This document shows positions 1-1,309 of a DNA stretch of 45,301 nucleotides, piece after piece (the first letter of the stretch is position 1; each line of letters starts with the position of its first letter). A program made the translations under genes and the position numbers. A model generated the notes under the pieces. That model was not told the DNA's origin. It did no database searches and worked only from the letters and a program-made list of their open reading frames with translations. Location of the stretch: positions 1 to 45,301 of the forward strand of contig JAITUY010000107.1 in assembly GCA_031286095.1 (NCBI GenBank), given 5' to 3'. This DNA is from Treponema sp. Its GTDB lineage: Bacteria; Spirochaetota; Spirochaetia; Treponematales; Breznakiellaceae.

Positions 1-840
1 CTGTGGATAGACTGGAAAGGCGACAGCGCGCTTGAAGACTCGACGCCATTCAGGTTTACCGGCAAGGAAATGGACGCCGAGACCGGCTTTTACTACTACG
101 GCGCGCGCTACCTTGACCCGAAAACGAGCAGGTGGATAAGCGCAGACCCCGCATTGGGGGAATACGTGCCGTCAGCGCCCGTTGATGAAGAAGCGAAGAA
201 GCGCAATGGGAACCTGCCTGGCATGGGGGGTGTGTTTAATTACGTCAATCTGCACGTGTACCACTATGCGGGGAATAATCCGGTTAAGTACACCGACCCG
301 GATGGAAGGAAACAGAATATTGCTCAAAAATTATTAACTGTTATTTTGGCTACAATTGCAAAAACTGAAAAAGGCGGTGAGTTTATTAAAAATATAACCA
401 CAGTTACAACCACCCGAAATTATTATGAAGGTTTAAAAGTAAGTGGGTATAGTGAAAAATTTTACAAAGATAAAACATCCGTTAAAGTTGCTGGTATTCC
501 TCTTAATACTATTCAAACGCAATCGACAGTTGACAGTTCAGGATATAGTGCATCAGAAGCAATGTCTGACGATACAACTTACGATGCCAAAGTAGGCCAG
601 AGTGGGGCAACAAATCCACTGATAAAAAACACAATACAAATAGATCGTGATAATTTTTTCCACCGTCCAAAAAATGAAAAAGGAAAACCAGATAGCGGGG
701 GTTGCGTAATTCCGCCGACAGTAGCAGATGCAGATGAATTAAATCAAATCGTGAAAGATTTAGGCTTTAAAAAGGACAATACTATAAAGTGGAAATTTAC
801 AAAACCTAGAGAGGGAACGCCTAATGCCAATTTGGATTAA
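1..840 (+). CDS. RHS repeat-associated protein, 3' end, with variable C-terminal tip
   Basis: The frame is open from base 1, so the gene starts outside the window and only the last 279 residues are visible. Residues 17-102 are the end of an RHS core: FTGKEMDAETGFYYYGARY, then SRWISADP, then NPVKYTDPDGR. RHS proteins are large shell-forming proteins, secreted or surface-exposed, that carry a swappable toxin at the C-terminus after this boundary. The roughly 175 residues after DPDGR do not look like RHS and are much more AT-rich. Near the end there is a His followed by an SGGC motif (FFHRPKNEKGKPDSGGCVIP), which loosely recalls the His and Gly-Cys motifs of L,D-transpeptidase-like or DUF5675-like enzymes; that is a weak resemblance, not an assignment. 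The stop overlaps the next gene, as toxin-immunity pairs often do. Confidence 0.85.
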   Translation: MWIDWKGDSALEDSTPFRFTGKEMDAETGFYYYGARYLDPKTSRWISADPALGEYVPSAPVDEEAKKRNGNLPGMGGVFNYVNLHVYHYAGNNPVKYTDPDGRKQNIAQKLLTVILATIAKTEKGGEFIKNITTVTTTRNYYEGLKVSGYSEKFYKDKTSVKVAGIPLNTIQTQSTVDSSGYSASEAMSDDTTYDAKVGQSGATNPLIKNTIQIDRDNFFHRPKNEKGKPDSGGCVIPPTVADADELNQIVKDLGFKKDNTIKWKFTKPREGTPNANLD

Positions 841-1309
841 TAAAATGAAAATATTATTTTTTTTACTATCTGTATTAACTTTTTATAATTGTTGTAGCAG
901 AGAGATAATAATAAAAAAAATAGGAGATCCTATATATAGTAATTATATAAAATGGGAATTAGAAATAACATCAGAGCGGGAAAATGATACAATTATCCCG
1001 TCATTTAATGTGACTCTGATGAAAAAAACGGATGACTTTATAAAATTTTATAAGTTCAGGACACTGTATTATTATGGGCAACTCCACGATTTTTCTGATA
1101 TAGTCTATTATGAATGGACAGAGGAAATGCCGGAATTGATAGAATTAAATGAAAAAGGATTCGTAACGATTAGAAGGACATTGCCTGCTATGCAACGCGA
1201 AGAGTTGATAAAAAAAGAAAAAGATGTTCAAAAATATTTTGTGTACACAGATCCTGATGGTGAAAATTTGGAAGGAATAACTTATAAAATGATTATTGTT
1301 CCTAAGTAG
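824..1309 (+). CDS. small lipoprotein, probable immunity partner of the RHS tip
   Basis: I do not recognise the family. The 161-residue protein starts with a short N-region and a hydrophobic stretch (ILFFLLSVLTFY) ending in Cys-Cys at residues 23-24, a loose spirochaete-type lipobox, so it is likely exported and lipid-anchored. The ATG at 824 overlaps the RHS reading frame by 17 bases and has a fair Shine-Dalgarno (gagaggga) just upstream; a second in-frame ATG at 845 would also leave the signal intact. The rest is charged and AT-rich with no motif I can name. Position directly behind and overlapping an RHS tip suggests an immunity protein. If so, the lipid anchor suggests that the toxin acts outside the cytoplasm. 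This is inference from context. Confidence 0.6.
   Translation: MPIWINKMKILFFLLSVLTFYNCCSREIIIKKIGDPIYSNYIKWELEITSERENDTIIPSFNVTLMKKTDDFIKFYKFRTLYYYGQLHDFSDIVYYEWTEEMPELIELNEKGFVTIRRTLPAMQREELIKKEKDVQKYFVYTDPDGENLEGITYKMIIVPK

Follow-up and report, generated by a model that had tools for sequence, protein, structure and literature searches.

A candidate toxin-immunity cassette at the 3′ end of a treponeme RHS gene, with a tip predicted to adopt the L,D-transpeptidase fold and a lipoprotein partner

The first 1,309 nucleotides of the analyzed stretch of treponeme DNA (the window, 45,301 nucleotides at full length) probably comprise the 3′-terminal part of a gene for an RHS polymorphic toxin, a large surface protein, and the lipoprotein gene that confers immunity to it, with the tip of the toxin being a thiol enzyme of the L,D-transpeptidase fold that attacks peptidoglycan. 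The assignment of the two genes as a toxin-immunity pair is well supported computationally, toxicity being predicted, and peptidoglycan is the likely target. The tip represents a new sequence family that has hitherto remained unnamed, as has its lipoprotein partner, and toxins of such kind are already known in outline.

The window (G000:C232) starts at a contig end and does not include the upstream part of the RHS gene. Frame +1 is uninterrupted from base 1, at the contig edge, to base 840 and encodes 279 amino acids. The C-terminal end of the RHS protein, with the RHS-associated core, is encoded by positions 1 to 306 of the plus strand (TIGR03696, E = 1.7e-18, residues 13-51) and terminates at base 306 with DPDG, a junction of the type conserved in RHS cores. 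The 177 residues beyond this junction are unrelated to the core and form the exchangeable tip (307 to 840, coding 307-837, plus strand), a predicted toxin domain of the L,D-transpeptidase fold. The gene for the lipoprotein (824 to 1309, plus strand), a predicted immunity protein of 161 amino acids, starts with an ATG at 824, shares its first 17 bases with the tip gene and has a GAGGG ribosome-binding site (811 to 815, plus strand) located within the tip gene, 8 bases 5′ of the start codon; its product begins with a signal peptide, namely a hydrophobic N-terminus with a Cys-containing lipobox, MPIWINKMKILFFLLSVLTFYNCC. The sequence-only reading of this DNA had described a core running to DPDGR, an unrelated tip of about 175 residues, a His...SGGC pattern within the tip and an overlapping gene with a lipobox, all of which are confirmed. 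Among the collected treponeme RHS loci, cores closely similar to that of the window bear many unrelated tips. Downstream of the cassette, a small HTH (XRE-type) regulator is encoded on the minus strand (1827-2183) between the lipoprotein gene and recA, and two near-identical short intergenic copies with GACGCAAAGGCGC and GCGCCTCTGCG-like ends are found at 2288-2620, between the RHS locus and recA.

Both the tip and the lipoprotein stay below every family cut-off of Pfam and NCBIfam, in agreement with the earlier impression that both fall outside known families, and no convincing match to either was found in PHROGs or among PDB sequences. Searches with the single tip yielded only chance matches in the GTDB family of the window (f1, 200 genomes) and in a collection of genome contigs, and no tip relatives were found in plasmids, phages or viral contigs. 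When both GTDB families were searched in this manner, relatives surfaced only in the sister family (f2), where two true relatives were located at RHS C-termini (G351 and G463, E = 5e-9 and 7e-9) and two more (G567 and G501) were picked by eye from weaker matches. A profile search of 274 genomes gave 20 matches, distributed over 18 of them, and at least 12 full-length homologous tips are present in related treponemes; five of these tip loci come from metagenome assemblies assigned to Treponema or Treponemataceae, among them Candidatus Treponema caballi. The closest intact relative, the tip of G698, shares 39% identity with the tip of the window. Against a profile of 11 tips that was built without these two sequences, the window tip scores E = 8e-14, compared with 0.017 for the top-scoring one among 998 shuffled versions of it, and the G698 tip scores E = 7e-19. 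The window tip is of full length, contains no stops and aligns end to end with the intact tips. Two profiles of the tip family (A2 and A3) produced no convincing match among PDB sequences.

In the alignment of 12 tips (A3), in which identity to the first sequence drops to 23%, four residues are invariant, namely R37 (415 to 417), S73 of a QST motif (523 to 525), H119 (661 to 663) and C133 (window tip numbering; all coordinates on the plus strand). H119, the predicted catalytic His, corresponds to the His of the YkuD/Csd6 motif, and C133 closes the predicted catalytic Cys motif S130-G-G-C133 (694 to 705, plus strand), in which the Ser is shared by nearly all rows. The motif of the tip family can be written as H...S-x-[GA]-C-x-I, with a variable loop between the His and the Cys. 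All 12 tips thus contain the catalytic His and Cys of the YkuD family, and the second His of the published motif HXX14-17-(S/T)HGC (PMC9638812) is absent across the aligned family. The weak L,D-transpeptidase-like His/Cys pattern proposed from the sequence therefore holds in part: the two residues are invariant and a homologue has the corresponding fold (see below), but the tips carry S-x-[GA]-C instead of [ST]HGC. The Pfam YkuD model (PF03734) does not match the window tip, and no sequence profile ties the two together; the best YkuD score within the tip family is 15.8 bits, compared with a Pfam cut-off of 23.4, and a divergent member, G763, matches the model at E = 0.022. The Tlde1 domain model in Pfam is not among the matches of the window tip up to E = 10. 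By the strict standards of profile and full motif, the window tip is outside Pfam YkuD.

The AlphaFold2 model of the homologous tip of G351 (L192, 33% identical to the window tip), built from six sequences, has a pLDDT of 80.6 and a pTM of 0.81, and the top 24 PDB matches obtained with it by Foldseek are all L,D-transpeptidases or L,D-carboxypeptidases, including Csd6 (1.1e-4) and YkuD (8.7e-4). VIA-align superimposes the same model on YkuD with a Z-score of 10.2 and an rmsd of 3.2 over 108 residues; 77 chains score Z >= 8, and every one of the 50 entries listed belongs to the L,D-transpeptidase/carboxypeptidase class. The best structural matches are Csd6, which ranks first by Foldseek, Pgp2 and Bd1075, all three with Z of about 10. 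The modeling thus provides strong support for an L,D-transpeptidase fold in L192, and the same fold is predicted for the window tip by homology. The model of the window tip itself, one element of the structure prediction suggested at the outset, turned out poor (pLDDT 64), because the alignment used for it (A5) misplaces H119, which is placed correctly in the 12-row alignment that includes G698. The three best VIA-align matches of this low-confidence model are L,D-transpeptidases (Z of 5.3, 4.8 and 3.8), and no L,D-transpeptidase is among the Foldseek matches listed for it, so that the window tip owes its fold assignment to homology to L192. The window tip most likely functions like a YkuD enzyme.

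The probable chemistry of the tip is suggested by Csd6, an L,D-carboxypeptidase without transpeptidase activity, whose oxyanion hole consists of backbone groups of Lys174, Gly175 and Cys176 (PMC4599014). Like the window tip family, Csd6 (Lys174-Gly175-Cys176) retains the H...C pair and lacks the second His; because it is only a carboxypeptidase, the trimming of tetrapeptides is favored over cross-linking activity and, by analogy, is the most likely reaction of the tip. Under the proposed mechanism, the Sec-exported RHS protein would reach a competing cell, where the tip would attack the stem peptides of peptidoglycan in the periplasm; H119 would activate C133, giving rise to an acyl-enzyme, and the residue after position 3 would be trimmed or exchanged, leaving the wall weaker. 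Anchored in the envelope of the producer, which it very probably protects, the lipoprotein would bind and block the tip. A toxin-immunity pair with the same fold and a different target, for example an amidase of the DpaA type, which would release lipoproteins from peptidoglycan, or a thiol protease directed at envelope proteins, has to be considered, given that the amidase DpaA shares this fold with transpeptidases and carboxypeptidases (PMC10653827), that the second motif His is missing from the tip family and its H-C loop is variable, and that proteases (M91, C10) occur among other treponeme RHS tips. The closest structural matches, Csd6, Pgp2, Bd1075 and YkuD, however, all act on stem tetrapeptides, and nothing in the fold speaks positively for a protein substrate, which makes such a target unlikely.

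The lipoprotein is linked to this tip or to RHS remnants throughout its family. Relatives of the window lipoprotein were detected in G542, G485 and G310 (E = 7e-12 to 7e-10), weakly in G269, and also in G698; against the profile of these five relatives, the window protein scores E = 1.1e-18 (best shuffle 2e-5), and its mature part alone, with the signal peptide removed, scores 1.4e-12. All six members found are encoded directly behind a tip of this family, a C-terminal tip remnant or an RHS remnant. The tip is intact in the window and in G698; in the latter, both genes are intact, and the RHS tip is followed, with a 4-base overlap, by the homologous lipoprotein. In G310, G269 and G485, a C-terminal remnant of the tip directly precedes the lipoprotein gene, the remnant in G485 consisting of 14 residues, SSEYRQNHRKENQQ, with which the G698 tip also ends, residue for residue; in G542, a truncated RHS gene is located upstream. 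Remnants of tips and RHS genes next to a retained lipoprotein are the expected debris of cassette exchange. No lipoprotein of this family was found away from RHS material in approximately 395 genomes of the two families searched, contrary to what the sequence-only reading had named as grounds for abandoning a toxin-immunity pair, and the conserved pairing supports that proposal. The weak lipoprotein matches in f1 proved to be chance ones upon inspection of those looked at. For the window lipoprotein and for its G698 and G269 relatives, no known immunity family in Pfam or NCBIfam scores above the cut-off. The conserved pairing places the lipoprotein gene directly 3′ of the tip, the position occupied by immunity genes of RHS toxins, and protection is predicted accordingly.

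Behind other tips of the window family lies a different partner, an exported protein of approximately 260 residues with an F5/8-type domain of the NADase_transloc family (PF25302, E = 9e-22 and 5e-20 in the two partners tested). These pairings bear on the notion that the tip is not a toxin at all and instead links the RHS protein, or else the partner lipoprotein, to the producer's own peptidoglycan, in wall attachment or processing. Some YkuD-family enzymes do attach lipoproteins to peptidoglycan (PMC10653827), and the partner in this case is a lipoprotein; yet whole tips are swapped between RHS cores that closely resemble one another, relatives of the window tip pair with the unrelated PF25302 protein, and the lipoprotein persists beside mere fragments of the tip, all of which fits toxin-immunity cassettes and not an attachment machine, so that this role is highly improbable. 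That the locus is non-functional, being an incomplete or decaying RHS cassette or an inactive structural extension of the RHS protein, is scarcely credible because, even though the contig edge truncates the gene and this tip family includes decayed cassettes, the window tip is of full length and stop-free and has kept all four invariant residues along with the downstream gene.

The argument from the lipid anchor was examined against the background of other treponeme RHS cassettes. Signal-peptide-like N-termini, many of them with a lipobox, are present in the products of 33 of the 34 genes found directly behind treponeme RHS tips of all types, whereas the same hydrophobicity threshold is passed by 5 of the 35 ORFs of the window; the count is based on N-terminal hydrophobicity of genes behind tips found by a pattern search in the collected loci (L041-L201), with the start codon chosen that gives the most hydrophobic N-terminus and with some of the loci being related. 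Exported partners being near-universal behind these tips, export alone does not indicate a peptidoglycan target. The argument from an exported partner to peptidoglycan was accordingly dropped as non-specific, and the lipid anchor, taken in the sequence-only reading as a pointer to a toxin acting in the periplasm, carries little weight here. Behind a second RHS tip of the window's genome lies a member of Imm-NTF2-2, a curated immunity family (PF15631, E = 1.4e-22), also with a hydrophobic N-terminus, which indicates that this position does hold immunity genes. In this second locus (L103, G000:C156, minus strand), a LysM-like stretch forms the end of the tip, and the Imm-NTF2-2 protein behind it is a membrane protein or lipoprotein.

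A separate set of RHS tips (L077, L105, L111, L112, L114, L115 and L120) displays the motif H...T-[NDH]-G-C and is likewise followed by exported proteins. Three of the members tested show borderline matches to Pfam YkuD (E = 2e-4 to 5e-4), and PF25302 proteins are encoded after the tips of two members, G379 and G570; thus, two sets of tips with related predicted chemistry have one partner family in common. Comparison of the profiles of the window tip family and this parallel YkuD-like set gave no significant match, and therefore no sequence link between the two is claimed. Exported proteins of approximately 260 amino acids are found behind both tip families (L142, L146 and L176-L191, as well as L114 and L120) and match PF25302 where tested; proteins of this type are possibly a widely shared immunity family. 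A standalone secreted protein akin to the YkuD-like RHS tips is encoded in G504 (L113:1336-1965), with the gene for another exported protein behind it. Two long RHS carriers, those of G501 and G012, have N-terminal Sec signal peptides, the tip of the latter belonging to the parallel YkuD-like set, and a Pfam search of 23 other tips identified peptidases of the M23, M91 and C10 families as well as DUF4329, DUF4347 and Ntox44. Export may be the rule for RHS immunity proteins of treponemes. It is conceivable, and put forward here only tentatively, that the whole treponeme RHS arsenal is extracytoplasmic, combining Sec-exported carriers, envelope-directed tips (L,D-transpeptidase-like, M23 and other peptidases) and exported immunity proteins, often with a lipid anchor, in practically every cassette.

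The closest known systems are the RHS toxins with L,D-peptidase domains described by Zhang et al. in 2012, a subset of whose immunity proteins are secreted or membrane proteins (PMC3482391). These toxins share with the window the RHS carrier, a C-terminal domain of the L,D-peptidase type and a linked immunity gene; the window family differs from them, as described, in the absence of the second motif His and in its lipoprotein partner, and remains below every current Pfam and NCBIfam cut-off. In the same collection, the immunity proteins of polymorphic toxins are cytoplasmic in all but a few cases, and the sole lipoprotein among them is Imm65, which is paired with Tox-JAB-1 (PMC3482391). Another counterpart is the experimentally studied L,D-transpeptidase effector Tlde1 of the Salmonella T6SS, together with its cognate immunity protein Tldi1 (PMC9638812). 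The L,D-transpeptidase fold, the Cys/His active site and the partner immunity protein, all of which are predicted for the window, are common to both; however, Tlde1, an antibacterial enzyme, is a T6SS effector and has the full HXX14-17-(S/T)HGC motif, whereas the window tip is RHS-borne, carries S-G-G-C and has no match to the Pfam Tlde1 model. The structurally closest enzymes, Csd6, Pgp2 and Bd1075, are cell-shape enzymes and not RHS tips with immunity genes, and their sequence similarity to the window tip is not detectable. On the immunity side, Imm-NTF2-2 (PF15631) and NADase_transloc (PF25302) proteins are exported and occupy the same position behind treponeme RHS tips as the window lipoprotein, which matches neither of them and forms a small family of its own.

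These results assign a mechanism and named catalytic residues, both predicted, to an unannotated toxin family present in many treponeme genomes, and propose a role for a lipoprotein family that has no apparent relatives. With exported partners behind 33 of 34 tips, competition of this kind among treponemes seems to take place at the envelope and not in the cytoplasm, and many unannotated treponeme lipoproteins become candidate immunity proteins. If the arsenal is indeed extracytoplasmic as a whole, it would stand opposite to what is described for polymorphic toxins generally, whose immunity proteins are mostly cytoplasmic.
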